Position numbers and translations under genes: made by a program. Positions 17,550 to 64,000 of a stretch of DNA of 64,000 nucleotides are shown here, piece by piece. Position 1 is the first letter of the stretch; the number at the start of each line of letters is the position of its first letter. The notes beneath the pieces are model-generated. The model worked only from the letters and a program-made list of their open reading frames with translations, searched no databases and was not told the DNA's origin. Source of the stretch: a virus; the IMG/VR virus record IMGVR_UViG_3300025727_000782, positions 1-64,000 of that record; one strand, 5' to 3'.

Positions 17550-18047
17550 ATGCCCTATACAATAAAACAAGCTAGAAATACAGATTATTATAAAAATGTA
17601 CAAGATGCAGACGAACATAAACTTTTAAAACATTTAGAAGAAGAAAAGAAAAGAGCTGCAATGTCTGGTTCTGCACTTGATGCAACAGACCCATTGAGAG
17701 ATGATAGAGGATTTTTATTATCATACGAAGACCCTAAAAATCCAGGTGCTTCAATGGAAAAGGAACACCAATATGTTAGACTTCCTGTAGTACAAAAATC
17801 TTCAAATAAAGACTTGTGGTTAAAGTTTTTTGGTCCTGAAGAATTAGGCGGGAATGGAAAATCAGTATTTAATGAATTACTTACTGAAGTACCACCTGAA
17901 GAACCAGAAGTAACACCTCCTGAACTTGAGGGAATGAGAATAGAATTACAATCTAAGATAGATGCTCAAGATGAATTGAATATAACATTAGATGAAACTA
18001 TAACAGAATTACAAGAAGAACTTGCAAAAGTAGCAGAGGGTGATTAA
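17550..18047 (+). CDS. tail-operon protein with C-terminal coiled coil
   Basis: A 165-residue protein. The N terminus is polar and helical, the centre Pro/Glu-rich (PPEEPEVTPPELEG), and the last 35 residues form a clear heptad coiled coil (MRIELQSKIDAQDELNITLD...). The stop overlaps the next start by one base (TAATG), so it is translationally linked to the giant tail protein. It may be an oligomerising linker or chaperone for it; this is inference. Confidence 0.55.
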   Translation: MPYTIKQARNTDYYKNVQDADEHKLLKHLEEEKKRAAMSGSALDATDPLRDDRGFLLSYEDPKNPGASMEKEHQYVRLPVVQKSSNKDLWLKFFGPEELGGNGKSVFNELLTEVPPEEPEVTPPELEGMRIELQSKIDAQDELNITLDETITELQEELAKVAEGD

Positions 18048-21000: not shown

Positions 21001-22834
21001 AAAAAGAAAGTTTACATATGCATTAGATTTTAAATCTTCAGAGTATGTTCAAGTGCCATGGAATGATGATGGTACGAGTGGAATAAAACCTGAAACAGTA
21101 GAGTTTAGATTTAGAAGTCCAAAATCAAAAGACCAAGTTATATTGAATCAAGGAACTAATTGGGCAATATCATTACAAGATAATGGAGCAACTGATGATT
21201 ATGGATATTTAGAATTTGCTATTAGTGGTAGTTCTCTTGAATTTGTTACTTCATCTTTATTACCAGTTTATAATGATGAGATGTGGAGTGTTATGTTAAC
21301 GAGGAAATCAGCAAGTGGAGCTGAGTTAACTGCAGATACAACTTCACAAAATATAACTTATGAGTTAACAACAAAACAATATGATTCAAGTAGAGAAGTT
21401 GTAAGGTTTGCAAGTAGTCAAAGTTTATCAACAAATACTGCAGCGACAAATGCTAAATTTGTTGCAGATGGTACTCTAAGTTTTGGTGGAAGTGGAACAG
21501 GGTTTTATACAACACAACTTAGTGGTTCATTAATGGAGCTTAGATTGTGGAGTGAACCATTATCACAGGATTCATTTGATAACCATGTTAGAGCACCAAA
21601 ATCTTATAATGGAAATACTACTGAATCTTTCTTTGATAATTTGATACATAGAACACAATTGAATGATAATATAAGTTTAGTTTCAACTTCAAGTTTTACT
21701 GATAATAGTTTTTCACAAACATACAATGAAACTGGTAGTGCTAAAAGTTTTGTTGGGAATCAATTTAGAAGTATAGTAGATTTAGAACAATTAAGAGTTC
21801 CAAACATTGGTCCGAGTAGAAGAAATGCAACTAAAATACGATTAGAGGATAATACTTTAACTGGACCATTATCATCTAATATTAGAAATGAAAAATCATC
21901 ACAAGATTTTGCACCAATAGATAGTAATAAACTCGGAGTATTCTTTTCACCAACGGATGTAGTGAATGAGGATATAATGTATTCTATAGCGGATTTTAAT
22001 TTTGATAATTTGGTTGGAGATCCAAGAGATGTTTATGAAGATAGTTATCGTGGATTAGAATTACAACAAAGAAAGTATTGGAAAAAATATTCACGAACAA
22101 ATAACTTTTGGGATTATATGAGAATCATAGATTATTATGATAGTGGTATTTGGCAACAACTTAAAAGTTTATCACCTGCAAGAGCAAACACAACTCTTGG
22201 AGTTTTGATTGAACCAAACATATTAGAACGAAGTAAAGTGGTAATTGGAAAGTCACCATCATTTGATAATCAATATTTTGAAAATGCTGGACATTTTGAT
22301 GTTGGAATAGATATGACTAATTTCATAAGTGGTTCTGATGATAGGATGATGGTTCTAACTGGAGAGTTTCCAAACTATGATGGAGTTTTAAATGTACATA
22401 ATAATGAATCAGGTTCACTTGGTACTACAGCAATGCCATCATTGGTGAGATTGGGAGAAATTGACCCGAGAACAGAATTTGGTAATACATATGCTACAGC
22501 AAGTACTACACAGGGTGCTGTATCAAGAGTATTTACAGAAACATTACAACCTTATATTAGTTCTTCAAGACTTGCAGAACACAATGAAATAAAATATAAG
22601 AATTATGCGAGTTCACAAGATGCTTATACTGATACACCACTTAGTTCATCATTTGAACCAGCGGAATATCAGAGTATGGCATATGACTCAAAACTTTTTA
22701 GACTTTTTTATAAAGGTCAATTATTAACAAAGAAAAATACAATAGATGGAAACGACCCCGTTGAGATAACTATAACATCACCAACAAAACTTGTAACACA
22801 AGAACCAGGTGATTCTAAACTAAAAGTTGAATAA
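18047..22834 (+). CDS. giant tail protein with internal Hint domain and LamG-like domain
   Basis: A 1595-residue protein. Residues 304-408 are a Hint (hedgehog/intein) module. It starts CFTGNTKVKLSNGRQVP, has a block-B-like TTDNHPMKYRGKWYKAHEIG, and closes VYNLILDKHHTIVANNVV-C. The usual terminal His-Asn is absent (ANNVVC), so cleavage rather than clean splicing is more likely, if it acts at all. Residues about 990-1175 resemble a LamG/concanavalin fold (YALDFKSSEYVQVPW... MELRLWSEPLSQDSFDNH). The remainder has many Ser/Tyr-rich tail-type stretches. Position after the baseplate genes suggests a baseplate or proximal fibre protein. Confidence 0.75.
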   Translation: MLEYGLNQKDKEQLEIPGLLPSGFGRRNEDYIHIYVYQSEDLTTDEDDVLVGDEIFPAGDVFPDDRKLDLDIGGHLRQMGFTEGTYKVKYLFLKRIAGKEQTVFINEDGEVHVGKVQTKVINGKTKYFSTKKFGKRQSRQELKEIFPKELKYVVKKISADKTEVEVDTQNIQNALYKKRIKEINSWITYTPLTNSTSGKIRFDLTDPNILVLTPHDKEPGFSDAMVGGKITIKGMYSITGAQIAENIEPVTLPPTIFTPEDFSNIDIFADVTAGVEQPTVDEQINVRAVDEEMVGGNDKFSGVCFTGNTKVKLSNGRQVPIKYLRHGMKVKTEIGYAKILKVIKDERPYGDTLSKFKNLITTDNHPMKYRGKWYKAHEIGKLFQSKPLNVYNLILDKHHTIVANNVVCATLGKWESMKKFEMWRERQITMLRAMDEGDDWSMGGDSSTDNEGMTYSTPYIANNEVVVNDPPPSVTPENIRGAIAISKGSADVPTVPVPAPEIVIPIDYVGTIVEVLDNNRIRVDTSYEQGANKFEHSGEDNSRAIFDECFVNFKKGQVERLNTYMVCNGSYHLVLNYLKNPFGAETSRLVKLYDKVEETEEMDLCYFVEEKMEPYEDTITLVPFVEEDPEILFLRLPDFNSTNNPINFRGTNFNNYTQLIGTDSGVQEDIQNKLVSQSLLDTQVNVDYTRRTDYLGSDITDYGFANHIHFSSAEKRIDNFKTKLELIELYVSSSDSFQDITGSEETIGEWNAKKRRVINSFDPLEHYMYFESSSYASSSVGEYYSASWPKSNSSSPYTLVHTSGSAATTWFDTWRGYAEDFDRNNRDRLANNIPLHVNTDTQNNTFIDFLDMTGQQFDEIWSYLKHFTDINERSNKLSEGISKDIVREVARSMGFELTNGNDLMILPEYLLGKEADGTTKYESPQDQVTEEIWKRILANTPFFLKTKGTMRAMKGLLNCYGIPSSILRVREYGGPDKGTRVSYEIKRKFTYALDFKSSEYVQVPWNDDGTSGIKPETVEFRFRSPKSKDQVILNQGTNWAISLQDNGATDDYGYLEFAISGSSLEFVTSSLLPVYNDEMWSVMLTRKSASGAELTADTTSQNITYELTTKQYDSSREVVRFASSQSLSTNTAATNAKFVADGTLSFGGSGTGFYTTQLSGSLMELRLWSEPLSQDSFDNHVRAPKSYNGNTTESFFDNLIHRTQLNDNISLVSTSSFTDNSFSQTYNETGSAKSFVGNQFRSIVDLEQLRVPNIGPSRRNATKIRLEDNTLTGPLSSNIRNEKSSQDFAPIDSNKLGVFFSPTDVVNEDIMYSIADFNFDNLVGDPRDVYEDSYRGLELQQRKYWKKYSRTNNFWDYMRIIDYYDSGIWQQLKSLSPARANTTLGVLIEPNILERSKVVIGKSPSFDNQYFENAGHFDVGIDMTNFISGSDDRMMVLTGEFPNYDGVLNVHNNESGSLGTTAMPSLVRLGEIDPRTEFGNTYATASTTQGAVSRVFTETLQPYISSSRLAEHNEIKYKNYASSQDAYTDTPLSSSFEPAEYQSMAYDSKLFRLFYKGQLLTKKNTIDGNDPVEITITSPTKLVTQEPGDSKLKVE

Positions 22835-49271: not shown

Positions 49272-50303
49272 ATGTCAACAGCAGCAGGACAAAACTTATC
49301 ATTAGGAAAATTAAGACGAGCAATCGATGGAAACGATTCGTATACCGCCGAATTTGCTATGTCTACTGCCAAAGGTTCTTCAGCTACAGTTCAGATGAGT
49401 GAGTTTTCCATTAGTTCAGTAGATAGTGTTAGTGGATATGCTTATTTATGGGAATCAACTGCAGAAACCTATACAATGAACTTTAGTAATGCAGGTGCTT
49501 TATTTTTATCAAAAATAGCAAGTAGAGATGAAAATTTTACTTGGTCGGATAATAGTTCGATTTTAAGTGTTGCAGGTGATTATACTGCTACAGTAACAGC
49601 GGGTGCAATTTCAAATGCAAATACTGGTACTGGAGCAGATGATGATTGGTATGCAGCGGGAACTAATAATGCAGCTGTAGCAGTTACAGGTTCATTTAAT
49701 GAAGATGGACAAAGTAATGGATTTAATGATCATGCTACAAATTATAATACTAATTTATACAAAACACTTACCATTGTGGATAGTTATGGTGGTTCACCAA
49801 GTTGTTTATTAATTGGAACACCAATTGATATGGCAGATGGTACTACTAAACTTGTAGAAGATTTAGAAATTGGTGATGAAGTTTTATCAATGAATATGCC
49901 AGGTCAACTTGATGAAGATAATGATGATTGGAGAAGTTGTAGATTTTCTGATGAGAAAACAGAAACATTTACTCAACATTCTGCAAGTGTTCAAGATATT
50001 AACTTTGATTTTGCACACAATTATTGGAATATAAATGATGGACAAGAGAAGATTACAGGTGAACACGAAATGCTATATAAACCATTAAATGAAGATGTTT
50101 GGATGTGGCAATTAGTTCCAAATATGAAAGTTGGTGCTAATGTAATGGACAAAAATGGAAATGAAGTTGAAATTAAATCTTTGGAGAACATACCAAGTGA
50201 TGAAGGATTTGAAGTAGTTCAAATTGATGTAGAACCATTGGATGTATATTTTGGTAAAACATTCTTGGTACATAATAAGGGAAGTAATGTTAATCCATTC
50301 TAA
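49272..50303 (+). CDS. virion-type protein with C-terminal Hint domain
   Basis: 343 residues. The N-terminal 175 residues are a Ser/Ala/Thr-rich beta domain (FAMSTAKGSSATVQMSEF...). A Hint module runs from C178 (CLLIGTPIDMADGTTKLVEDL, EIGDEVLSM) through a block-B-like ITGEHEMLYKP to the closing DVYFGKTFLVHNKG, with His334-Asn335 in place. The next residue is Lys, not Cys/Ser/Thr, so splicing is unlikely; C-terminal cleavage after Asn or N-terminal cleavage at Cys178 is possible. Likely a tail protein that cleaves itself during maturation. Confidence 0.7.
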   Translation: MSTAAGQNLSLGKLRRAIDGNDSYTAEFAMSTAKGSSATVQMSEFSISSVDSVSGYAYLWESTAETYTMNFSNAGALFLSKIASRDENFTWSDNSSILSVAGDYTATVTAGAISNANTGTGADDDWYAAGTNNAAVAVTGSFNEDGQSNGFNDHATNYNTNLYKTLTIVDSYGGSPSCLLIGTPIDMADGTTKLVEDLEIGDEVLSMNMPGQLDEDNDDWRSCRFSDEKTETFTQHSASVQDINFDFAHNYWNINDGQEKITGEHEMLYKPLNEDVWMWQLVPNMKVGANVMDKNGNEVEIKSLENIPSDEGFEVVQIDVEPLDVYFGKTFLVHNKGSNVNPF

Positions 50304-50378: not shown

Positions 50379-51107
50379 GTGTATCACGGAATATTAAATC
50401 ATAATTTTATAAAGAAATTTATTACCACTAATAATGGTGATGGAGTTGCATATCGATGGACACACGGTGCAACAGATTATCATTTGGGTGATGGTTTATT
50501 AGTTTATAGTTTAGTACAATTCTTTCAATCTAAAACTTGTGTATGTTTAGGTAGTGGTGGTGGATTTATACCACGAATAATGAGTCAAGCAAGACAAGAC
50601 TTATATAGTGATGGAACTTTTGGGGGTAAAAGTAACAAATACGAGTTTGGTGATATTGGAACTACTATAGTTGTAGATGATTGTAATGGTTTTAATGGTG
50701 AGGTAGATTGGAATGATGAAGATAGTTTTTTAAGAGAAATGTTTCATCCAATGTTTATAAAGAAAACAACTGAAACGGCATATTATAATTATTTTATAAA
50801 GAGAGATATTAAAATAGATTATTTACATATAGACGCCGACCACACATTTGACGGAGTTAAAAAAGACTTTGAGTTATATTCAAAAATTATGAATAAGGAT
50901 GGTATAATTACCATACATGATACTGATAAAGAATATATTGATAATTTTGTAGAAGAATATGGCCACGAGGGTGATGATTTAACAGGCCCAGGTGAGTTTA
51001 TTAAAACAATAGATAAACGAAGTTTTGAAGTTTTTAATTTTTTTAATCACGGAAAACATAAAGATAAACCAAGTTCAACAGGGTTAACAATAGTGAGAAA
51101 GAAGTGA
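50379..51107 (+). CDS. class I SAM-dependent methyltransferase-like protein
   Basis: 242 residues from a GTG start. CVCLGSGGGFIPRIMSQ is the SAM-binding glycine loop. IDYLHIDADHTFDGVKKDFELYSKIMNKDGIITIHDT is the motif-IV region seen in Methyltransf_24-type enzymes, which often act on sugars or small molecules. No catalytic DNA-methylase tetrapeptide. As first gene of a glycosyltransferase cluster it probably modifies a sugar or glycoprotein. Confidence 0.65.
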   Translation: MYHGILNHNFIKKFITTNNGDGVAYRWTHGATDYHLGDGLLVYSLVQFFQSKTCVCLGSGGGFIPRIMSQARQDLYSDGTFGGKSNKYEFGDIGTTIVVDDCNGFNGEVDWNDEDSFLREMFHPMFIKKTTETAYYNYFIKRDIKIDYLHIDADHTFDGVKKDFELYSKIMNKDGIITIHDTDKEYIDNFVEEYGHEGDDLTGPGEFIKTIDKRSFEVFNFFNHGKHKDKPSSTGLTIVRKK

Positions 51108-51961: not shown

Positions 51962-53527
51962 ATGAATAATTATAAATTAGCAATTATTGTTCCTTATAGG
52001 GATAGACAAGAACATATGGATGTATTTATACCACATATGGATCAATTTTTTTCCAACAAGGATATTGATTATACTATTGTTGTTGTTGAACAAACTGATG
52101 GTAGACCATTTAATCGTGGTAAGTTATTGAATATTGGATTCGATTTAGTTAAGGACGACTTTGATTATTTCTGTTTTCACGATGTCGATTTACTACCAAT
52201 TTCAGATGAGTGTGATTATTCATATGAAGATGCACCTATACACTTAGCTACTCAACTTGAAACCTATAATTATAACATACCGTATCCACACTATTTTGGT
52301 GGTGTTGTTATATTCAATAAGGAAAATTTTATACAACTCAATGGCTATTCAAATGAATATTGGGGATACGGAGTAGAGGATTTAGATATGATGTTTAGAT
52401 TAGAAAATTCTGGTTTACCACATGATATTTGCATAGACCAATCAGGAATTAATACACAGAGTAAATATAGTTTATCGGAATTTAAAGTTATAGAAAATAC
52501 AAAAAATAAAAAATTAAAATATGTAACATTGGATGGCGAGAATACATTACATCTTAAAAGTAGTACGGAGTTATTGACTTTACCAGAAAAATCTTATAGT
52601 ATTAGTGTTTGGGTACGACCACATAAGTTACCAACGATTTCTAATTTACCCTCTTCTATTAAAAATGGTGAACGAGAACACTCTATTATTTCCAAACCAG
52701 GATTTCATACAGGGTTATTTTATAAGTCACCTATACGAAGAAGAACTAAATCTTTTGATGAAAAACCTAAGTGGGAATTTGAAAAAGAAAAAACTTCATT
52801 TTTTCAGGCTCAGATATGGGATGAAAATGAACAAAATTATGTTGTTGATAGAGATGTAACACTTGGAGATTGGTATCACTTAATAATGTCGGTTGATGTC
52901 GATGATGGAAGTTTATCTTTATATTTAAATGGGATAAAGGCATTTGATAAGTTTAACAGACAAAAGTTTGATAATGGAAAGTTTAAAAAGAATTTAAGAA
53001 AATATTCGGATTCGCCTTGGTTTATTGGATGTTCGTATCCAGAACACAATGGATTTATAGGTGATATTTCAGAATTAAAATTTTACAATGTACCAATGAC
53101 ACCTGAAAGGGCCGAGAGTGAGTTTCTTGCTGATGAGATTGATGTATTACCAATAGTACATATTGATTTCTCTAAGGGTTATCGAAATACATATTTTGAT
53201 ATAACGGGAAATCATTGTAATTTAGTTTCATCGTTAGATATTATTGATACACACAAATCTCATTATTTTAAAATTGGTAAGGAGTTGGTAATTCCTATTA
53301 GAAAACCTGGTAAGTATAAATGTTTAAAACATACAGGCGATGATAAGATAGTAGAAAGATATGATAACTTTGACCCCGATACAGATTTAAATCTTGAAAT
53401 ATTTTTTGATGATATTAAAAGTGGTGATATTGATTATACGAAGATTGGTTTAAATAGTTTAAATTATAAACTTGTATCTGAAGAAGATTACAAAGAGAGG
53501 CATAAATGGATAAAAGTAATAACATAA
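51962..53527 (+). CDS. GT7-like galactosyltransferase domain fused to LamG-like lectin domain
   Basis: 521 residues. Residues 1-155 resemble beta-1,4-galactosyltransferases (GT7): IVPYRDRQEHMDVFIPHM, PFNRGKLLNIGFD, FCFHDVDLLP (D-V-D metal site) and YFGGVVIFNKENF with GYGVEDLDMMFR. Residues about 200-385 form a LamG/concanavalin-type sandwich: SISVWVRPHKLP, WYHLIMSVDVDDGSLSLYLNG, WFIGCSYPEHNGFIGDISELKFYN. First of three such fusions. The lectin-like part may hold the acceptor glycan. Confidence 0.8.
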   Translation: MNNYKLAIIVPYRDRQEHMDVFIPHMDQFFSNKDIDYTIVVVEQTDGRPFNRGKLLNIGFDLVKDDFDYFCFHDVDLLPISDECDYSYEDAPIHLATQLETYNYNIPYPHYFGGVVIFNKENFIQLNGYSNEYWGYGVEDLDMMFRLENSGLPHDICIDQSGINTQSKYSLSEFKVIENTKNKKLKYVTLDGENTLHLKSSTELLTLPEKSYSISVWVRPHKLPTISNLPSSIKNGEREHSIISKPGFHTGLFYKSPIRRRTKSFDEKPKWEFEKEKTSFFQAQIWDENEQNYVVDRDVTLGDWYHLIMSVDVDDGSLSLYLNGIKAFDKFNRQKFDNGKFKKNLRKYSDSPWFIGCSYPEHNGFIGDISELKFYNVPMTPERAESEFLADEIDVLPIVHIDFSKGYRNTYFDITGNHCNLVSSLDIIDTHKSHYFKIGKELVIPIRKPGKYKCLKHTGDDKIVERYDNFDPDTDLNLEIFFDDIKSGDIDYTKIGLNSLNYKLVSEEDYKERHKWIKVIT

Positions 53528-53728: not shown

Positions 53729-53941
53729 ATGGCAAAAGAACATGCAGAAGAACGAGTAGCAAAATCATTAGAGAGTATTGCTGAATCATTTAGAACATTT
53801 GAAGATTCATTTTTGGAGTTAGACCTTCCAATTTGGAGTGAAAGACTTGAGTGGTATTTGAATGAGTTTTATAGTTTGGCAAAACAAAAAACAGTTGGTG
53901 GTGAGAATAGACCAGATAGGGATAAGGAACGTAGTAGATGA
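53729..53941 (+). CDS. small acidic helical protein between fusion genes
   Basis: 70 residues, MAKEHAEERVAKSLESIAESF... ending in a charged tail (PDRDKERSR). Ribosome site AAGGAG precedes it; the stop overlaps the next start (ATGA). Helical and coiled-coil-prone, with two Trp. Function unknown. Confidence 0.5.
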   Translation: MAKEHAEERVAKSLESIAESFRTFEDSFLELDLPIWSERLEWYLNEFYSLAKQKTVGGENRPDRDKERSR

Positions 53942-55305
53942 ATCCTAAACTCGGTGTAATCGTACCGTATCGAGATAGGGAAAAACACCTAAAGAAATTC
54001 ATTCCACATATTACAGATTTTTTAAATGAACATACAATTCCATTTGAAATTTTAGTGGTGGAACAGGCAGATGATTTACCTTTTAATAGAGGTAGGTTGT
54101 TGAATGTTGGTTTTGATATTTTAGAAGAAACTTGTGATTATTTTTGTTTCCATGATATTGATATGCTTCCTATGGAGGCTGATTATAGTTATGCTAAAAC
54201 ACCATTACATTTGGCAACAAAGCTAAGTAGTAATGATTATGAATTAACATTTCCATCCTATTTTGGTGGAGTTACATTATTTAATAAAGATGATTTCAAA
54301 TCTATTAATGGATTTTCAAATGAATATTGGGGATGGGGATTTGAAGATGATGATTTATTGTATAGGTGTTCTAAAAATGGATTGCCTGTAGATAAAAAGG
54401 TTTACGGTAATGATAGTAAAATAAACTATGTATTACAGATATCAAACGAAACTGAGGGTATCGAGATAATATCAAATAATAAAGTTTTAAAAAAACTATT
54501 CGATTCTGATTTTACTATTTCAGTAAATTCTAAACCAGATAAAATTACAAAAGATAATAGTAGTGATGCAGATGAGTATTTTATAATTAAGAAACCTGGA
54601 TATGATAGTGGATTATCATTTACAAGTTTTAATAGATTTAAAGCAGAACTTTTTGAGGAAAGTGGAAAATCAGTCTCAATAAATTCAGAATTACTGGGTG
54701 AAATCTGGACAAATTTAATATTAACAAAGAACGGTAATGAGTTATATTTTTATTTAAATGGTGAATTGGTAGGAAAAGAATTTATAGATGATGTGCGGGA
54801 TTATAATGACGAATCACTTTATATAGGACATTCAAAATTTAAAGGAGTAGTATCTTCGGTTTCTATATGGAATAAAAATATTACCTTAGAGGAAGTAAAT
54901 ACTATTTATAATAGTAGTCAGCCAATGACGAATGTTTTACCAACTGGATTACAAGTTCATTATGATTTTAAAAATATAATAAATAATAAAGTAATTGATT
55001 TAAGTGGCAATAATAACAATGGAGTTTTGACTGGTGGTAAGCAGATTGAGATGGATAGTAAATTGAAGAGTTCACTTACTATTCCACTTAGGAGAGATGG
55101 TAAGTTTTTAACTTTGAGTCATAGAAACAATTCGTGGAATGATTTGAGTTGGGTACATAAAGAAACAAGATTAAATCAGATAAAGTATTTAAATGAGGTA
55201 CGACAAGATATGTTTGATACAAACATAGATGGTTTGAATACTTTGAGATATAATTTAGAAGATAAAGAAGTAATCGATGATTATACAAAGGTAAAAGTAT
55301 CGTGA
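53938..55305 (+). CDS. GT7-like domain fused to LamG-like domain (second copy)
   Basis: 455 residues. The N-terminal GT7-like part has VIVPYRDREKHLKKFIPHI, LPFNRGRLLNVGFDILEE, FCFHDIDMLP and YFGGVTLFNKDDFKSINGF with GWGFEDDDLLYRC. The C-terminal LamG-like part has TISVNSKPDKI, WTNLILTKNGNELYFYLNGEL and LYIGHSKFKGVVSSVSIWN. Same order and spacing as the gene at 51962, with clear divergence. It overlaps the genes on both sides by four bases, so the three are co-translated. Confidence 0.8.
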   Translation: MNPKLGVIVPYRDREKHLKKFIPHITDFLNEHTIPFEILVVEQADDLPFNRGRLLNVGFDILEETCDYFCFHDIDMLPMEADYSYAKTPLHLATKLSSNDYELTFPSYFGGVTLFNKDDFKSINGFSNEYWGWGFEDDDLLYRCSKNGLPVDKKVYGNDSKINYVLQISNETEGIEIISNNKVLKKLFDSDFTISVNSKPDKITKDNSSDADEYFIIKKPGYDSGLSFTSFNRFKAELFEESGKSVSINSELLGEIWTNLILTKNGNELYFYLNGELVGKEFIDDVRDYNDESLYIGHSKFKGVVSSVSIWNKNITLEEVNTIYNSSQPMTNVLPTGLQVHYDFKNIINNKVIDLSGNNNNGVLTGGKQIEMDSKLKSSLTIPLRRDGKFLTLSHRNNSWNDLSWVHKETRLNQIKYLNEVRQDMFDTNIDGLNTLRYNLEDKEVIDDYTKVKVS

Positions 55306-56735
55306 AACATAAATTAGGAGTTTGTATACCATATCGAGATATCGGAGATGGTGTTCGTAAAGGACACTTGGACAAGTTAGTACCTCATTTAGAAAAGTTC
55401 CTTGGCGATAGGAATATAGACTTCAGATGTTACATTGGACACCAAGTTGATGATAAACTGTTTAATCGAAGTGGGACAAAGAATGTTGCATTCCTTGCTG
55501 CTAAAGAAGATGGGTGTGATTATGTAGCATTGCATGATGTAGATATGTTACCCGAAGATGATGCATGTGATTATAGTTATCCAGAAAAATATCCAAGACA
55601 TATTGCGTGTTATTTATCACAATGGGATTATACTCTCAGAGATGTAGAGTATTTTGGTGGTGTTATTCTTTTTACGAAAGAACAATTTCTTGATGTGAAT
55701 GGTTATAATCCAGATTATTGGGAGTGGGGAATGGAAGATGACGACTTATTTTGGAGATGTGTAAAGAAAGGTTATACACCAAAAAAATCTATTAAAGGTT
55801 TTGGGAAATCAAAAGCATTATATTTTAACGGAGAGGATGATCATATTATTGTTCCACCAAGTAGAACTTTAAGAAATTTAACAAGTCGTTCATTTGAGAT
55901 TGAGTTAACTTTAAAAGCTCAATTACCAGAAAAATATAAAGAATATTTAATTGGGGATTTAAGTAATAGAAGATATATTGACTTTCCAATAATAAATCGT
56001 AAAGGTTGGGATTTTAATATTGGTTATAATAATAGTAGAGCATTCTCAACAACAATGTGGAGTTGGAGAAATGAATTAATTTATACTTGGGCAAAAAGAT
56101 ATCCAAATAAATGGACTAAATTAAATTTAAAAGTTGATGATAGAGAACAAGAAGTAAGATTTCTTGTTAATGATGAAGAAACAGATTCACGACATGGTAC
56201 AGGTGCAGAATCACCATTGAAATATGAAAATGGATTAAAAAGATATGGTGGACTTCCCTATATTATTGGAAAGGCTCATTCGAGTGGACAAGTCGATTCT
56301 AAATATAAATTATTTCAAGGATATATTCAAGAGATTAAGTTTATAGATTTTAGAGAAAATTTAGTTTTACATTATGATTTTAGTAAATCAGTAGATGGAA
56401 ATAAAGTTATTGATTTAAGTGGTAATGAAAATCATGGTGAACTTCATGGCGGAGAAGTCAGAGAAGTTGAAGTAAGTGATTTATATAATACTGATGTACC
56501 ACACAGAAGTTTTGGTAGAATGGATTGTATGTATCACGATGATGTAGGAATTGTTAATAATAAATTTACACTTGAGACTACACAAAAAAACGAAGAACTT
56601 TATAGACTACAAATGCAAAAAGATAAAATAGATATTGATTCTAATGGAGTGAAACAACAAAAATATGAAATCGTATCAAAGGAAAATGTTTACGATAGAC
56701 ATCAAATGGTAAATGTAACTTTTAAAGGAAAGTAA
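55302..56735 (+). CDS. GT7-like domain fused to LamG-like domain (third copy)
   Basis: 477 residues from GTG 55302 (GTGA overlap). GVCIPYRDIGDGVRKGHLDKL, LFNRSGTKNVAF, VALHDVDMLPEDD and YFGGVILFTKEQFLDVNGY with EWGMEDDDLFWRC define the GT7-like part. The LamG-like part (about residues 190-385) includes SFEIELTLKAQLP and YIQEIKFIDFRENLVLHYDF. LSGNENHGELHGG resembles a segment (LSGNNNNGVLTGG) in the second copy. This copy has drifted most in the NRG motif (NRSG). Confidence 0.8.
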   Translation: MKHKLGVCIPYRDIGDGVRKGHLDKLVPHLEKFLGDRNIDFRCYIGHQVDDKLFNRSGTKNVAFLAAKEDGCDYVALHDVDMLPEDDACDYSYPEKYPRHIACYLSQWDYTLRDVEYFGGVILFTKEQFLDVNGYNPDYWEWGMEDDDLFWRCVKKGYTPKKSIKGFGKSKALYFNGEDDHIIVPPSRTLRNLTSRSFEIELTLKAQLPEKYKEYLIGDLSNRRYIDFPIINRKGWDFNIGYNNSRAFSTTMWSWRNELIYTWAKRYPNKWTKLNLKVDDREQEVRFLVNDEETDSRHGTGAESPLKYENGLKRYGGLPYIIGKAHSSGQVDSKYKLFQGYIQEIKFIDFRENLVLHYDFSKSVDGNKVIDLSGNENHGELHGGEVREVEVSDLYNTDVPHRSFGRMDCMYHDDVGIVNNKFTLETTQKNEELYRLQMQKDKIDIDSNGVKQQKYEIVSKENVYDRHQMVNVTFKGK

Positions 56736-56844: not shown

Positions 56845-57840
56845 ATGATAGATAAACATTTTATAGCATTGGGTTGTAGTTGGACGGCAGATTATAGTTA
56901 TTTGAAAATCGAAAATCCAGAATTGTATGGAGAGTACAAAGATGTGTATGCTACGTGGGCAACCCATCTCGGAAAAGATTTTAAAAAGTATAGTAACCTT
57001 GCTTGTCCTGGCCAGGGGAATGGTTATATGTACCATAGACTTGCTTATTATCTTAGTACACATAAGAATACAAAAGATTTGTGTGTTGGTATAATGTTTT
57101 CTGATTACACACGAATGTATTTTTCGACTGATACTTATGTAGAACATCCATTACTGAAAACTGATACGTATGAACCAGAGTTTCTCAAAACGGATGGATT
57201 TAAAACTTATGATATGGGCAGAATGGGTAGTGAACTTATTGAGGGTGGGGAGTGGGATATTAGAAAAAATAATTCATGGACTCAAGATTTATATGAATCT
57301 GATGACCCAGATAAGAGGAAAACCTTTGACTTACTATGGAAAGGAATGGAAGATTGGGTAGGTTCTCCAGACCATAAATTTCAAGAATCAATTGCTAATG
57401 GATTAAGTGTTTCCCATATATATTATAATTGGTTAACTGATATAATAAATATTATAAATCTTTTGAAGGCACATAATGTAGACTATTTTTATATGTTTGC
57501 AACACAGGATTACCACGCTTGTAAGAGTGTCACACAATATACTATTAGGAGTGATATATCTGGATATAAAAGAAACGTAAATGAGTTCAACGATAACACA
57601 GGAAACTTTGAACCATATTGGCAACCCTTACCTTATTCGGTAGAACCAATGATTAATCTAATTAATACACAAAACTATGTAGAGTTTCCTACTCGGACAG
57701 GGTGTTGGACAAGTTGGGTAGTAGAACAAGATAATCCAGATTGGAGAGATGTAATTCACCCAGGTAAAAAAATGCAGAAAAAAACATATACAGAAGTATT
57801 AAAACCCTTTTTAAAGGATAGGTTTGGTTATTATGATTGA
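56845..57840 (+). CDS. possible SGNH/GDSL-type hydrolase
   Basis: 331 residues. The N terminus IALGCSWTADYSY, the later YSNLACPGQGNGYMYHRLAYYL and the C-terminal DVIHPGKKMQKKTYTEVL recall the blocks of SGNH hydrolases (Ser in block I, Gly, Asn, and a D-x-x-H near the end). Here block I is GCSWT, and the D-x-x-H could be D-V-I-H. These enzymes remove or transfer acyl groups on sugars. The match is by pattern only; an unrelated phage enzyme is possible. Confidence 0.5.
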   Translation: MIDKHFIALGCSWTADYSYLKIENPELYGEYKDVYATWATHLGKDFKKYSNLACPGQGNGYMYHRLAYYLSTHKNTKDLCVGIMFSDYTRMYFSTDTYVEHPLLKTDTYEPEFLKTDGFKTYDMGRMGSELIEGGEWDIRKNNSWTQDLYESDDPDKRKTFDLLWKGMEDWVGSPDHKFQESIANGLSVSHIYYNWLTDIINIINLLKAHNVDYFYMFATQDYHACKSVTQYTIRSDISGYKRNVNEFNDNTGNFEPYWQPLPYSVEPMINLINTQNYVEFPTRTGCWTSWVVEQDNPDWRDVIHPGKKMQKKTYTEVLKPFLKDRFGYYD

Positions 57841-59311
57841 TCATGAATATGATAGAATAAAAAAAATATTACCTGATATAGAAAAGAAGACATCGCCTAC
57901 TTTTTGTCTTGCTAAATGGCATCACGTTACCATTTATTTACACTTAGGTGAAACTCATAGTTGTTACCACCCACAACCACACGGTATTCCTTTAGATGAG
58001 TTAAAAGAAAACCCATCTGCTCTACATAACACCAAACAAAAGAAGTTAGAACGAAAGATGATGTTAGAGGGTAAGAAGCCTGAGGGATGTAACTATTGTT
58101 GGAATGTAGAATCTATGGGTCCTGATTATATAAGTGATAGAAAACAAAGAACAGTTGCAATTCACGAGGGAGATAAAAGTAGATTAGATGATATCATAAA
58201 TAATCCCTGGGATATGAATGTTAATCCTGAATATATTGAACTTTCTTTTGGAAATACTTGTAACTTTAAATGTGGTTATTGTCATCCGAGATATAGTTCA
58301 AGATTTTTGGATGAGATTAAAGAACACGGACAATACCAAGAGATGTTTTCAGGGAAGTATGATATAGAATGGTTTATTGATAAATTACAAACAGATGAAG
58401 AAACAAATCCATATGTCAAGGCTTGGTGGCAATGGTGGCCAGAAGTTTCTAAAACTTTATCTATTCTAAGAATTACAGGTGGTGAACCAACAATTCATGG
58501 TAGTACATACAGATTGTTAGATGAGATTAATAAGAACCCCATGCCAAATCTTGAGTTGAATATTAATTCAAATCTTGGTGCAAACCCAAAACTCTTTGAT
58601 AGGTTTATAGATAAGTTAAAACCAATCATAGAAGAAAAGAAAGTAAAGGATTTTAAATTATTTACTTCTATAGATACTTGGGATAAAGATAAAGCTGAGT
58701 ATATGAGACATGGTTTAGATGTAGAATTGTTTGAGAGAAATTTTAACAAATACTTAGAGGAAATACCAGATAGTAGATTGTCTCTAATGATTACCTTTAA
58801 TAATTTATGTGTTTCTAATTTTGATTCTTTATTAGAAAAAATATTAGAGTGGAGAGGGAAGTATAATAACTTAGATTGGATTAATGAAAATGGACACCCA
58901 GTTCAGAGAATACAAATAGATACACCATATTTAAAAGAACCACCACACTATGATATGAATATTTTACCAAAGAAAGACTTTGGACATTATATGGATACTC
59001 ATTTAAAATTCATGGAAGATAATCTTGAGAAATGGAATGTGAATAAGTTTGACCACCTTGAAGTTGCTAAATTTAGAAGAGTACATAATTATTTTACTAC
59101 TAACACACCTGCAATTTCTTATTTGAGAAAAGGACAATCAGATTTTTATAGTTTTTTTACTCAACACGACAAAAGAAGAGATACAGAGTTTTTAAACGCT
59201 TTTCCAGAATATACAGATTTCTATAATCATTGTAAAAAAATAAATAATAGATATCAGGCAAGAGATAGATTAAGAGAGAAGAGACGGTTGAGGAATAAGA
59301 GATATGGATAA
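57833..59311 (+). CDS. radical-SAM protein with N-terminal Cys-rich domain (1)
   Basis: 492 residues from ATG 57833, overlapping the previous stop. The radical-SAM cluster motif is SFGNTCNFKCGYCHPRYSS (C143, C147, C150; C-x3-C-x2-C), followed by ILRITGGEPTIHG, the GGE motif. N-terminal FCLAKWHHVTIYLHLGETHSCYHPQ and GCNYCWNVE carry extra Cys, as in SPASM/twitch cluster domains, but placed before the core. Such enzymes modify peptides or sugars by radical chemistry. Confidence 0.82.
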   Translation: MIDHEYDRIKKILPDIEKKTSPTFCLAKWHHVTIYLHLGETHSCYHPQPHGIPLDELKENPSALHNTKQKKLERKMMLEGKKPEGCNYCWNVESMGPDYISDRKQRTVAIHEGDKSRLDDIINNPWDMNVNPEYIELSFGNTCNFKCGYCHPRYSSRFLDEIKEHGQYQEMFSGKYDIEWFIDKLQTDEETNPYVKAWWQWWPEVSKTLSILRITGGEPTIHGSTYRLLDEINKNPMPNLELNINSNLGANPKLFDRFIDKLKPIIEEKKVKDFKLFTSIDTWDKDKAEYMRHGLDVELFERNFNKYLEEIPDSRLSLMITFNNLCVSNFDSLLEKILEWRGKYNNLDWINENGHPVQRIQIDTPYLKEPPHYDMNILPKKDFGHYMDTHLKFMEDNLEKWNVNKFDHLEVAKFRRVHNYFTTNTPAISYLRKGQSDFYSFFTQHDKRRDTEFLNAFPEYTDFYNHCKKINNRYQARDRLREKRRLRNKRYG

Positions 59312-59340
59312 TATTTTTAATAAGATAGATACGGCATGTA

Positions 59341-60579
59341 ATGTTAAATAGAGACTTGTATTTTTTGAGAGACACACACTCCTCCTCAGTTGCTTCAGCT
59401 CTCAATAATCATAGAGACAATATGTATTCACCATCAATTCATGCTGGTGAGTTTTCAACATCTTCGCCAAACCGACAATTATACTTTGGAAATATGTTTG
59501 GACATTTAAATGGGTATGGTAAAAATAGTATTGTGAATGTTAAACATTATGATTTGTTACCAAAGGATTCTTTAAAAGTATATTTGTTTTTTTGTTACTT
59601 TCCGGAAGAATATACAATAAAGATAACACCAGGTTATTTAGATAAGTTAAAAAATGATCCTAATGCTTATTTTATGGTGTTTAATTTTTATGAGTGGATT
59701 CTTGAAGAAAAACTATTAATTAAATCATTGGACTCACAGGGTATCCCAAAAGAGAAAGTAATAGTGGCCAGTTCTTCAACGGGTAGATTAACTAACTCAT
59801 TCAAAGAAGTTAATATAGCAAATTGGTGGCAAAGTTGGTATAGGACACAAATTATGCATGGTGGATCTTCATTAATTGAGGAACACCAACATTCAATAGA
59901 TGATAAAAAGTTTAAATCACTTTGTTTTATGAAACATGCAAGATGGGATAGATTTATTTTAGCCTATTATTTAAATAAATTCAATATGTTATACGATAAG
60001 GAAAATTTGATTTCTTTACATTTTAATAAACAGAATTGGTTTCATTCTGAGTTAGAAAAAATGGATGATTCTTTAGGTGCACCTTATGCTGGAATTCCGA
60101 GAGATTTTAAAGATACCGTAAAAACATTTAAAGATAGAGAGTTAGATACTTTAAATAGAATTGATATACAATTACAACCGGTAGATGATTTCTATTTAAA
60201 TAGTTGTTATTCTATCGTGAGTGAAACAACAATGTTACAACAACCATTTATAACCGAGAAAACATTTAAACCTATAGTCCACAGTCATCCATTTATTTTA
60301 ATAGCTGGTAAAGGTGCAATTAAACAATTAAAAAAAATAGGATTTAAATTCTATGATGAATTGGCTGGTAAGGGATATGCAACAAGTGAAAAACAAGTAC
60401 AGAATATTATAAAAGAACTTTCAGAAAAATCACTTGACGACTTAAAAGAAATACTGCCAAGTCTTAAAAATAAAGTAAAACATAATTTTAATATATTTAT
60501 GTATACGGAGGTTATTTGGGATGACTGGGTAGGAGAACTATATGAAGTCATCACATCAAAGAGAAACAGTAATGAATAA
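59341..60579 (+). CDS. putative glycosyltransferase-like protein
   Basis: 412 residues. The C-terminal half has CYSIVSETTMLQQPFITEKTFKPIVHSHPFILIAGKGAI. The E-K-T-F-K-P-I-x(4)-P-F pattern is like the donor-binding end of GT10/GT-B-type enzymes, where a helix after a loop contacts the nucleotide sugar. The N-terminal half is unfamiliar (LYFLRDTHSSSVASALNN). The start has no good ribosome site and may depend on a 15-codon relay frame at 59304-59351. Two radical-SAM genes flank it. Confidence 0.55.
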   Translation: MLNRDLYFLRDTHSSSVASALNNHRDNMYSPSIHAGEFSTSSPNRQLYFGNMFGHLNGYGKNSIVNVKHYDLLPKDSLKVYLFFCYFPEEYTIKITPGYLDKLKNDPNAYFMVFNFYEWILEEKLLIKSLDSQGIPKEKVIVASSSTGRLTNSFKEVNIANWWQSWYRTQIMHGGSSLIEEHQHSIDDKKFKSLCFMKHARWDRFILAYYLNKFNMLYDKENLISLHFNKQNWFHSELEKMDDSLGAPYAGIPRDFKDTVKTFKDRELDTLNRIDIQLQPVDDFYLNSCYSIVSETTMLQQPFITEKTFKPIVHSHPFILIAGKGAIKQLKKIGFKFYDELAGKGYATSEKQVQNIIKELSEKSLDDLKEILPSLKNKVKHNFNIFMYTEVIWDDWVGELYEVITSKRNSNE

Positions 60580-62053
60580 AAAGAAAAAACACACTTTAAA
60601 ATCCTTAAAAAAGGATAAGGTAATATGTCCTTTTTTGTGGACACACTCTTATGTCGAACCAAATGGAAATGTCTTTCCTTGTTGTACATCTAAGAATACA
60701 GAAGCTTTTACACGACCAAGTAAGTATGGTAATGTTAAGGATAGTACTTTGGATGAGATAATGAGGGGCCAAGAGATGAGTAAACTCAGAAAGAAAATGT
60801 TAAATGGTGAGTTTGACTCTAATTGTTCTAATTGTTATAAAACTGAAAAAAATGGTGGTTATAGTTTTAGAACATTTGGGCAAGATGAGTTTCTTGATCA
60901 AGATATAGTTGACTATGTTAATGCTACAAATCCTGAAAACGGTGAAATAGAAGATTACACTTTTAAATATATTGATATTAGGTTTAGTAATGTTTGTAAT
61001 TTTAGATGTAAATATTGTAGTCCGAGATTTAGTTCTACTTGGTATAACTTTATGAAAGATGAGTCGGAAAAACACCCTGTTGTTAGGGCATATGTAAAAA
61101 ATAATCCAATGGAGATTGATTTATTTAAAGTTCAAGATGTTACAAAGGAAAATTTAATTACACAATTAACACCGCACTTGGATACAACACAACAAGTTTA
61201 TTTTGGTGGAGGTGAGCCATTGATTACTGAAGAGCATTATGAACTATTAGATGTAATGATGTCTAAAGATTTGTATGATATACACTTGAGGTATAATACT
61301 AATTTGAGTAATTTTAAATATAAAAAGAAACATATATTTGATTATTGGGAAAATTTTCAATATTTAACTATTGGATGCAGTTTAGATCATTTCGGTAAGA
61401 AGGCTGAATTTATGAGAACTAAAACTGATTGGAAAGTTGAGGAAGAAAATTTAAGAGAGTTAATTAAATTTAGAAGCAACCACTATGAAATTTGGGGCCC
61501 ACATGAAGAATTGGGAGACTCACAAAGAGAACATACAAAGAAGTGGGGAAAAAGTGGATGGGTAATCATATCAATTGATACTGTAATTACTATTTTTAAT
61601 GTAGGTTCAATTACTGATTTCTGGGACTATCTACTTGATGAAAAATTATTAGATGATCAGATGACAGTTACTATAAATGTAACTTACACACCTGAATACT
61701 TTACGGTTAGGGCATTACCAAAACACTTGAAAGACGAATTTAGTAAAAAGATGTATGATTGGTGGGAGAATGTTGATGAACGACATCCTAAACTTAAAAC
61801 TATGAAAGATGTAGCGGGAAATTTAATAAAGGGAGAATTTAAACAATACATTGATACCATTCATAACATAATGCATTCAGAGGATATTTGGGATGAAGAT
61901 CTATTTTTCTGGAAAATAAAATTTTTAGACCCTGATATGACATTTAAGAAAATACTACCTGAATTAAGTGATTGTGTTGATATGGATGCTTTAGCAGATA
62001 AAGTTTCCGATGAGGCATTTATGATAGCATCCCCCACAACTCTTTTAAAATAA
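60542..62053 (+). CDS. radical-SAM protein with N-terminal Cys-rich domain (2)
   Basis: 503 residues. ATG 60542 has AGGAG six bases upstream and overlaps the previous gene. The radical-SAM motif is IRFSNVCNFRCKYCSPRFSS (C152, C156, C159), with VYFGGGEPLITEEHYELLDVM as GGE motif. The N-terminal module has CPFLWTHSYVEPNGNVFPCC and NCSNCYKTEKNGGYSFR, a cluster-binding twitch-like domain before the core. Same type as the two genes that follow. Confidence 0.85.
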   Translation: MKSSHQRETVMNKKKKHTLKSLKKDKVICPFLWTHSYVEPNGNVFPCCTSKNTEAFTRPSKYGNVKDSTLDEIMRGQEMSKLRKKMLNGEFDSNCSNCYKTEKNGGYSFRTFGQDEFLDQDIVDYVNATNPENGEIEDYTFKYIDIRFSNVCNFRCKYCSPRFSSTWYNFMKDESEKHPVVRAYVKNNPMEIDLFKVQDVTKENLITQLTPHLDTTQQVYFGGGEPLITEEHYELLDVMMSKDLYDIHLRYNTNLSNFKYKKKHIFDYWENFQYLTIGCSLDHFGKKAEFMRTKTDWKVEEENLRELIKFRSNHYEIWGPHEELGDSQREHTKKWGKSGWVIISIDTVITIFNVGSITDFWDYLLDEKLLDDQMTVTINVTYTPEYFTVRALPKHLKDEFSKKMYDWWENVDERHPKLKTMKDVAGNLIKGEFKQYIDTIHNIMHSEDIWDEDLFFWKIKFLDPDMTFKKILPELSDCVDMDALADKVSDEAFMIASPTTLLK

Positions 62054-62095
62054 GATGTATATACAGACTCTGACGAATGATGATAAAACAATTTA

Positions 62096-63307
62096 ATGTC
62101 TAAAGAAAAAAAAAATAAAAGTTTTTGTATGGCTCCGTGGGTTCATATGAGTATATGGCAAACTGGTGATGCCTATCCTTGTTGTATTTATGATTGGGAA
62201 ACACCAATTGGAAATGTTAATGATGAGGGATTCAGGGGAGTATGGAATAATGATTCTATGAAAGAACTTAGATTAAAAATGTTAAATGGTGACGTTGTGG
62301 ATTCGTGTAAGACTTGTGATTTATATGATGAACAGGGAATATATTCATATAGACATAAAATGAATACAGAGTATAAACACCATCAGGGAGTAGTTGATAG
62401 TACAGAGAAAGATGGTTACGTTGAACAATTTAATTTAGCATATTTTGATGTTCGTTTTTCTAATTTGTGTAATATGAAGTGTAGAACTTGTGGTAGTCAT
62501 TTTTCAAGTAAATGGGGGGAAGATGATTATAATGGAAAACCTATAGTGATTGAAATTGATTATCCAAATATGTGGAAAGAGATTGAAGAGGTTATACCAA
62601 CAATAGAAGAGATTTATTTTACTGGAGGTGAGAGTTTATTTATGCCACACCACTATAAATTGTTAGATATGTTAATTGAAAGAGATAAGAAACCATTGAT
62701 AAAATATAATAGTAACGCAAGTAGACTTGGAATAGGGGATAAACATATTAAAAACTATTGGCCACACTTTGAGGAAATAATTTATGGAGTTAGTTTTGAT
62801 CAAGTTGGGGATAAAGCAAGTTATACTCGACACGGAACTAAGTGGGATAAGATTGTTGAAAATTTATTTTGGATAAGGGATAATAATAAAAATGTTGTTA
62901 TTGAACCAAGTCCTACTATTAGTATTTTTAACATTCTTGATTTAGATAAGATTGTAGAATTTTTATTTGAGAATGATTTAAGTACTAATTTTAGAATAAA
63001 CTTATCTAATTTATTAGTAACTCCTGAATATTTTTCAATAACATTATTACCAAAAGAATTAAAAGTAAAGGCTGAAAAAAATATAAATAAGTTGAAAAAG
63101 TATATAATAAAGAAAGTTGAACACATTGGACAGCGACAACATATTATTGAAAATTTAGATAAGGTTATAAGATTTATGTATGGAAAGGATACTTCAGATT
63201 TGATACCACGAACATTAAATGAAATAAAACTTATTGATATAAAAAGAAAGGAAAACTTTTTTGAAGTATTTCCTGAATATGAGATTTTAAAAGAATATGA
63301 AAAGTAA
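62096..63307 (+). CDS. radical-SAM protein with N-terminal Cys-rich domain (3)
   Basis: 403 residues. N-terminal FCMAPWVHMSIWQTGDAYPCC, then GNVNDEGFRGVWNNDSMKEL and SCKTCDLYDEQGIYSYR, are the twitch-like module. The core begins DVRFSNLCNMKCRTCGSHFSS (C125, C129, C132), followed by EIYFTGGESLFMPHHYKLLDML. The S in GGES replaces the usual GGEP. It overlaps the next radical-SAM gene by 11 bases. Confidence 0.85.
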   Translation: MSKEKKNKSFCMAPWVHMSIWQTGDAYPCCIYDWETPIGNVNDEGFRGVWNNDSMKELRLKMLNGDVVDSCKTCDLYDEQGIYSYRHKMNTEYKHHQGVVDSTEKDGYVEQFNLAYFDVRFSNLCNMKCRTCGSHFSSKWGEDDYNGKPIVIEIDYPNMWKEIEEVIPTIEEIYFTGGESLFMPHHYKLLDMLIERDKKPLIKYNSNASRLGIGDKHIKNYWPHFEEIIYGVSFDQVGDKASYTRHGTKWDKIVENLFWIRDNNKNVVIEPSPTISIFNILDLDKIVEFLFENDLSTNFRINLSNLLVTPEYFSITLLPKELKVKAEKNINKLKKYIIKKVEHIGQRQHIIENLDKVIRFMYGKDTSDLIPRTLNEIKLIDIKRKENFFEVFPEYEILKEYEK

Positions 63308-64000
63308 AGAAGAGTTATTTAAAACTAAAACATTTTGTATGATGCCTTGGGTACACATGCATGTTTGGCCTGCAGGAAAAACATTTCCTTGTTGTATGGC
63401 AGACCCAAATTGTGATATCGGAAATACTAATGAGAAAAGTTTGTTAGAACTTTGGAATAGTGGTAGAATGAAATTTATCAGAAAGTCTATGTTGAATGAT
63501 AGGCAAATTCCAGATTGTAGACGATGTTATGAATTGGAAGAAAGTGGAATGAGAACATTGAGAAATTCTTCTTTGGAAAATTTTGGACACCACTTTGACA
63601 AGGTTTTAGGTACACACGATGATGGGACAGTTGATGAGTTGAATATGGCTTATCTTGATATAAGATTTAGTAACTTGTGTAATATGAGTTGTAGAACTTG
63701 CGGCCCACAATTTAGTACAGGTTGGTATGATGATCATAAAAAAATTCACGGAGATCCTGGACATCCTAAAGTTTTACAAGTTAGTAAAAATATGAAAACT
63801 TGGTTCGAAAAATTAAAAGATGTGTTGGATACGGTAGAAGAAGTTTATTTTGCTGGGGGAGAACCTTTGATTACTGAAGAACATTATAAAATTTTGGATT
63901 ATTGGATTGAAACTAATAAGAAAGATGTTAGAATCGGATACACAACAAATTTTTCTTTAATGAATTATAAGAAGAAGTCGATATATGATTATTGGAATTC
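63297..64000 (+). CDS. radical-SAM protein with N-terminal Cys-rich domain (4), cut by window end
   Basis: Starts at ATG 63297 and is still open at 64000 (about 234 residues seen). N-terminal FCMMPWVHMHVWPAGKTFPCC, then DCRRCYELEESGMRTLR, precedes the core DIRFSNLCNMSCRTCGPQFS (C128, C132, C135) and VYFAGGEPLITEEHYKILDYW. It is closest in layout to the two genes upstream, which suggests tandem duplication. Confidence 0.85.
   Translation, partial: MKSKEELFKTKTFCMMPWVHMHVWPAGKTFPCCMADPNCDIGNTNEKSLLELWNSGRMKFIRKSMLNDRQIPDCRRCYELEESGMRTLRNSSLENFGHHFDKVLGTHDDGTVDELNMAYLDIRFSNLCNMSCRTCGPQFSTGWYDDHKKIHGDPGHPKVLQVSKNMKTWFEKLKDVLDTVEEVYFAGGEPLITEEHYKILDYWIETNKKDVRIGYTTNFSLMNYKKKSIYDYWN

Follow-up and report, generated by a model that had tools for sequence, protein, structure and literature searches.

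What does a phage gain from a row of radical-SAM enzymes that carry their auxiliary cluster module in front of the core instead of behind it? In the window studied here, positions 1 to 64,000 of an aquatic phage record of 77,466 bp, a reading made from the letters alone had placed four such genes beside glycosyltransferases and fibres and had proposed a sugar, a fibre residue or two small proteins as the substrate. This overall interpretation is partly supported by the analysis described in the following.

Identity and extent of the array

The four radical-SAM open reading frames are present at 57833, 60542, 62096 and 63297 (Table 1), and an N-terminal auxiliary module in all of them is confirmed. 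A profile search for SPASM or twitch domains in the N-terminal parts found PF13186 (SPASM, Pfam) in enzyme 2 (E=3e-13, residues 29-99), enzyme 3 (E=3e-12, residues 11-75) and enzyme 4 (E=1e-11, residues 14-78), in each case ahead of PF04055. Enzyme 1 gave no SPASM match in Pfam; it covers positions 1 to 398 of the NCBIfam model NF033640 (1.6e-91), which matches all four proteins. Thus the reversed domain order is real. The NF033640 scores were 307, 299 and 363 bits for enzymes 1-3, 249 bits for enzyme 4 as cut by the end of the window and 399 bits for the complete protein (409 aa), and 313 and 299 bits for two further enzymes past the window; they exceed the curated cut-off of 170 bits, and the cysteines of the N-terminal cluster lie ahead of CxxxCxxC. 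In the canonical SPASM/twitch order the auxiliary domain follows the core; here the module occupies residues 11-99 and the core comes after it. The swapped order also shows directly in alignments, where the N-terminal parts pair with the SPASM regions that canonical maturases carry at their C terminus (e.g. TIGR04317 positions 232-314). The enzyme type is already catalogued, as NF033640 (N_Twi_rSAM, "twitch domain-containing radical SAM protein"), under a name without a function. A literature search on NF033640 and on "N-terminal SPASM" found nothing.

The motif originally described for the module needs one correction: in the product of 57833 one Cys replaces "CC". The sequence-only reading had made its interpretation depend on conservation of the N-terminal cysteines, and this conservation held in 551 aligned relatives: the auxiliary Cys 14, 32, 74 and 77 (enzyme 4 numbering) are kept in 100, 99.8, 100 and 99.6%, the core Cys in 100%. 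Together with the profile E-values this excludes chance. Only these four auxiliary Cys are common to all subfamilies. With a profile of 52 members, the best PDB match of the N-terminal module was the twitch domain of BtrN, a dehydrogenase of a carbocyclic sugar; its Cys169, 187, 232 and 235 coincide in the alignment with the four auxiliary Cys. Judged by alignment, the module is thus of the twitch type: its four Cys are spaced as in BtrN, and a motif for a second cluster is absent.

The number of four genes holds for the window. Extension of the contig revealed that the array continues to about 70.9 kb of the record and comprises six of these enzymes, here called N-twitch enzymes, and two other radical-SAM proteins; most genes abut or overlap. 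This six-enzyme, operon-like array lies inside a fibre and host-recognition gene region. One of the two other radical-SAM proteins (66386-67363) has no N-terminal module; its C terminus contains two Cys about 20 residues apart, followed by CPKLHCHC. It apparently has the canonical order amid reversed-order enzymes and has a syntenic counterpart in one other contig (L016). In the fusion protein at 71450-73789 (779 aa) the DegT segment is located mid-protein; by eye, the N-terminal part is glycosyltransferase-like and the C-terminal part ParB-like.

Table 1. Features of the array and its surroundings (record and window positions coincide up to 64,000)
Feature	Position	Strand	Evidence or remark
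Methyltransferase (Methyltransf_24), same region	50379..51107	+	PF13578 3e-9
GT7 domains fused to LamG lectin domain	51962-53527		PF13733 1e-23, PF13385 3e-14
GT7-family galactosyltransferase-like, upstream of array	55302..56735	+	PF02709 9e-20, PF13733 8e-15
Protein directly preceding array	56845..57840	+	SGNH/GDSL-like by resemblance only (GCSWT start, DxxHP-type end)
N-twitch enzyme 1 (subfamily B)	57833..59311	+	NF033640 E=1.6e-91, clade B in tree; auxiliary Cys25, 44, 86, 89; core Cys143, 147, 150
GT-B-fold glycosyltransferase-like (family c2), between enzymes 1 and 2	59341..60579	+	
N-twitch enzyme 2 (subfamily G)	60542..62053	+	PF13186 3e-13, PF04055 7e-10, NF033640 7e-89; auxiliary Cys29, 47(48), 95, 98; core Cys152, 156, 159
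N-twitch enzyme 3 (subfamily I)	62096..63307	+	NF033640 1.8e-108, model pLDDT 93.8; auxiliary Cys11, 29(30), 71, 74; core Cys125, 129, 132
N-twitch enzyme 4 (subfamily A), 5' part	63297..64000	+	NF033640 1e-73, full gene 2.5e-119; auxiliary Cys14, 32(33), 74, 77; core Cys128, 132, 135
N-twitch enzyme 4, complete	record 63297-64526		crosses window end
N-twitch enzyme 5	record 64516-65760		
Class I methyltransferase	record 65760-66386		
Radical-SAM protein, Cys-rich segment C-terminal	record 66386-67363 (L008:8387-9364)		
N-twitch enzyme 6	record 67356-68756		
B12-binding radical-SAM protein	record 68753-70897		resembles C-methyltransferases
Small protein	between B12 radical-SAM gene and DegT fusion		
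Sugar-aminotransferase-like fusion with DegT segment	record 71450-73789 (L008:13451-15790)		
Elusimicrobia bin-0981 contigs with N-twitch genes	L103-L106, L108, L109, L111, L113, L116, L168		

Subfamilies, gene order and neighbours

A scan of viral contigs yielded at least 581 relatives. For the comparison of gene order 80 loci of up to 21 kb each were kept; they were picked by similarity to subfamily A, and arrays containing this subfamily are therefore favoured among them. These loci contain 2-8 N-twitch genes (median 5). Subfamilies were delimited in the tree by a branch-length threshold, with a support of 1.0 for D and H, 0.84-0.89 for B, C, E and G, and weak support for A, I and L. The exact order B-C-A-E-D was found in 38 of the 42 contigs with all five subfamilies, the remaining four swapping only E and D, and most subfamily pairs are never reversed; as the contigs are related, these counts do not represent independent events. 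The genome studied here has the order B-G-I-A-H-L. The same order is present in contig L016, where the flanks match as well, with the GT-B-like gene between B and G and the core radical-SAM gene between H and L. The number of phage contigs with such arrays, of about five N-twitch genes in nearly invariant order, is in the dozens at least.

Of 481 genes compared, 459 matched a gene of another contig better than any gene of their own array. Paralogues within the studied array share at most 36% identity, and orthologues in other phages mostly 59-82% (only 34-38% for G and L). By these sequence comparisons, the N-twitch genes are to be regarded as ancient, distinct subfamilies and not as recent copies. 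The suggestion that the copies serve serial or combinatorial modification is thereby divided: serial action agrees with the nearly fixed subfamily order, while combinatorial use is unsupported since each gene is closer to its counterpart in other phages than to its array neighbours. Further Cys are conserved in single subfamilies (D 100%, E 100%, H 94%, C 92%), which would fit different chemistries at successive steps.

As the sequence-only reading had said, the array adjoins glycosyltransferases and fibres. The AlphaFold model of the 59341 product (pLDDT 82) has GT-B glycosyltransferases as its best PDB matches (Foldseek, E 4e-4 to 1e-3), among them trehalose-phosphate synthase and GT10 fucosyltransferases; the protein carries a TEKT...HPF motif and has no match in Pfam. 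The product directly preceding the array did not match Pfam, NCBIfam or PHROG. Further upstream, three GT7 galactosyltransferase-like proteins are adjacent to each other (51962-53527, 53938-55305 and 55302-56735; the middle one recognised by eye), and the pairing of GT7 with a LamG/concanavalin-like lectin in the first of them is unusual for a phage. Two structural-looking proteins contain Hint-like (intein/hedgehog-type) segments, one at 49272-50303 (weak PF05203, E=0.009) and one at 18047-22834 (by eye), possibly for autoprocessing of phage structural proteins. The nearest baseplate from a cultured phage is that of Microcystis phage Mel-JY01 (48% identity).

Across the related viral loci the typical order is tail fibre, small protein, two GT8-like genes, small protein, c1, N-twitch array, c9 and a NodU-type carbamoyltransferase. 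Most viral arrays have fibre genes a few kb upstream of them, and the conserved small proteins c4sm and c8sm are situated between fibre and array. The GT-B-like family c2 occurs in 62 of the 80 loci, the carbamoyltransferase (identified by Pfam) in 37, a GDSL-like esterase (weak profile match) in 32 and amidinotransferase-like genes (named by resemblance) in 21; 70 loci have at least one of the listed partners. The GT8-like family c3 matches glycogenin (E 5.5e-4). Both c1, which is strongly conserved, and c9 are frequent direct neighbours of the array; c1 has no match in Pfam or PDB, c9 none in Pfam or PHROGs.

A tblastn search of 50,697 phage records with the window proteins matched only the Vibrio phages K566 and K567; a K566 protein as the query then reached KVP40-type phages. 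Vibrio phage QD01, which grows on the laboratory strain V. natriegens Vmax, also has a homologue of the KVP40 type. In the cultured phages K566 and K567 four family members are found amid GT8 genes with PagP, a lipid-A gene, nearby; in K566 the GT8 proteins among which they lie number two, and a weak GT4-like protein is there as well. KVP40 has three genes that belong to the family or are close to it: one is two genes away from a glycosyltransferase, and the others are near nadV and QueC-like genes. Gene 0261 of KVP40 (L172) encodes an N-twitch radical-SAM protein, and its Cys pattern is shared by the close relatives 0260 and 0272. KVP40 has long been studied and offers a cultured system for testing N-twitch genes.

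In bacteria, single-copy members (subfamilies F and N) have pirin, yaaA, a PALP enzyme and other unrelated genes as neighbours, among which no consistent partner was found. Subfamily F is a lone N-twitch gene without glycan neighbours in many Bacteroidota (L123, L147 and other bacterial loci); its role may differ from that of the phage arrays. The metagenome-assembled Elusimicrobia bin-0981 has more than 20 N-twitch genes similar to subfamily A, spread over many contigs, unlike the mixed phage arrays.

The substrate of the array

Among the substrates proposed, a sugar appears best supported. With little more than even confidence, we propose that the array is a serial radical pathway which tailors a sugar of a phage-directed surface glycan. 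Only two things, the genes around the array and the match of the twitch module to BtrN, point to a sugar-modifying activity comparable to that of BtrN, NeoN, AprD4 or DesII. The core CxxxCxxC would hold a [4Fe-4S] cluster that cleaves SAM, and the resulting 5'-deoxyadenosyl radical would abstract a hydrogen from the substrate. The four N-terminal Cys would bind a second [4Fe-4S] cluster, BtrN-like but order-swapped, which could accept or relay an electron. For BtrN, whose auxiliary cluster has four Cys ligands, this cluster is the proposed electron acceptor when a carbocyclic amino sugar is oxidised (PMC9012708). Because separate ancient subfamilies are held in nearly fixed order, the N-twitch enzymes may be read as successive steps of one pathway, which would oxidise, epimerise or deoxygenate a sugar, either as such or as a unit attached to a carrier or glycan. 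Methylation might be the task of the B12 radical-SAM protein and the methyltransferase, amination that of the DegT-like domain, and transfer that of the glycosyltransferases, which are of the GT7 and GT-B types here and GT8-like in the relatives. The end product could be a modified host surface glycan that excludes rival phages, or a sugar on the fibre. A bolder and rather doubtful version of this is a radical assembly line in which five or six fixed-order N-twitch enzymes, together with the B12 radical-SAM methylase and carbamoyl-, amino- and glycosyltransferases, would build a rare sugar about as complex as an aminoglycoside, to be placed on the phage's own fibres or on the surface of the infected host.

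The bacterial members beside unrelated genes weigh against a sugar, as do the KVP40 members, of which only one is near a glycosyltransferase, and the frequent neighbours c1 and c9, to which no function is assigned. Structure leaves the substrate undecided. Enzyme 3 was modelled with high confidence (pLDDT 93.8); its top viral structural relatives are proteins of uncultured phages and one Vibrio phage KVP40 protein, and its PDB relatives are a mixture of radical-SAM enzymes acting on peptides, lipids, nucleotides and sugars. The Foldseek matches include a sactipeptide enzyme, SuiB, anSME and viperin, which likewise speaks against the sugar reading.

The main rival, which we consider rather unlikely, is modification of a protein, most plausibly a tail fibre or another protein that binds the receptor; radical chemistry would then alter its side chains in series, much as SPASM maturases treat peptides. 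Among the SPASM enzymes with known biochemistry most modify peptides or proteins, which favours this explanation over a sugar. PqqE and SuiB are examples (PMC9012708), and the structural matches to the sactipeptide enzyme and SuiB point in the same direction, as do the fibre genes upstream of most viral arrays with c4sm and c8sm in between. The window itself, however, has no homologues of c4sm or c8sm. No obvious precursor peptide had been seen in the sequence-only reading, and the intergenic gaps of the array indeed leave no room for a precursor gene: genes abut or overlap, no gene for a precursor or leader peptide and no peptidase is present, and the operon thus lacks the precursor-peptide gene by which a RiPP cluster is recognised. 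Moreover, the auxiliary module corresponds to a single BtrN-type cluster and not to a two-cluster SPASM, and the partners are glycosyltransferases, a carbamoyltransferase and esterases. The small proteins at 53506 and 53729, which had been considered as substrates, are not supported in this role: no homologue of them was found at the related loci, and they are also unrelated to c4sm and c8sm. The 53506 product has no homologue in cultured phages either; its matches to RRF_GI and FadR were weak and below the cut-offs.

It is quite improbable that the enzymes make a small molecule not destined for the surface, for example a modified nucleotide as viperin does, a hypermodified base of DNA or a cofactor. 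In favour of this are an alignment of the core domain with viperin (E about 1e-5) and the QueC-like and NAD-salvage genes near the members in KVP40 and Vibrio D479. Yet a viperin match is general to radical-SAM cores, and no thymidylate-synthase, base-transferase or 7-deazaguanine genes were recognised beside the array of the window. To our knowledge, viperin has no auxiliary cluster. Finally, recent tandem duplication for combinatorial diversification of one modification, in the manner of phase-variable modules, is ruled out for practical purposes by the low identity of array paralogues compared with orthologues and by the nearly fixed order, even though several copies are adjacent and a few arrays have doubled subfamilies (e.g. 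BBAAHP).

Radical carbohydrate chemistry is so far known mainly from antibiotic producers. If the proposed sugar substrate is correct, many aquatic phages would encode it, and this would bear on how receptors evolve and on superinfection exclusion.

Comparison with known systems

That marine phages carry radical-SAM cassettes has been described earlier, but without an explanation. The T4-like marine genome TARA_ERS488813_N000010 resembles the phage studied here in having many radical-SAM genes, namely 12, in a single phage (Nishimura 2017, PMC5332604); in the part of that paper dealing with them they are treated as Fe-S metabolism, and domain order and substrate are not discussed there. In pelagimyophages, a host recognition cluster between VrlC and gp14 contains fibres and glycosyltransferases, and its glycosyltransferases and radical-SAM cassettes were read as a means of surface alteration against coinfection (Zaragoza-Solas 2020, PMC7029224). 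Like this variable region of T4-like phages, the window region combines fibre genes, glycosyltransferases and radical-SAM genes. The passages on the pelagimyophage cluster present it as a variable, non-syntenic island and do not describe radical-SAM subfamilies or a fixed order. With the near-fixed subfamily order and the extra Cys conserved in several subfamilies, what looked like an unexplained cloud of genes becomes a defined, probable pathway of several steps, each enzyme of which is open to testing.

On the protein level, all six N-twitch proteins match NF033640 over nearly the entire model and do not differ from it; the entry says nothing about arrays or gene order. The SPASM maturases PqqE, anSME, SuiB and CteB are related in both auxiliary module and core, but their SPASM domain is C-terminal and usually holds two clusters, their substrates are peptides or proteins, and precursor genes are often nearby. 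BtrN from butirosin biosynthesis (PDB 4M7S/4M7T) combines, like the N-twitch enzymes, a four-Cys twitch cluster with a radical-SAM core; sequence similarity is confined to the twitch module, which follows the core in BtrN and precedes it in the N-twitch family.
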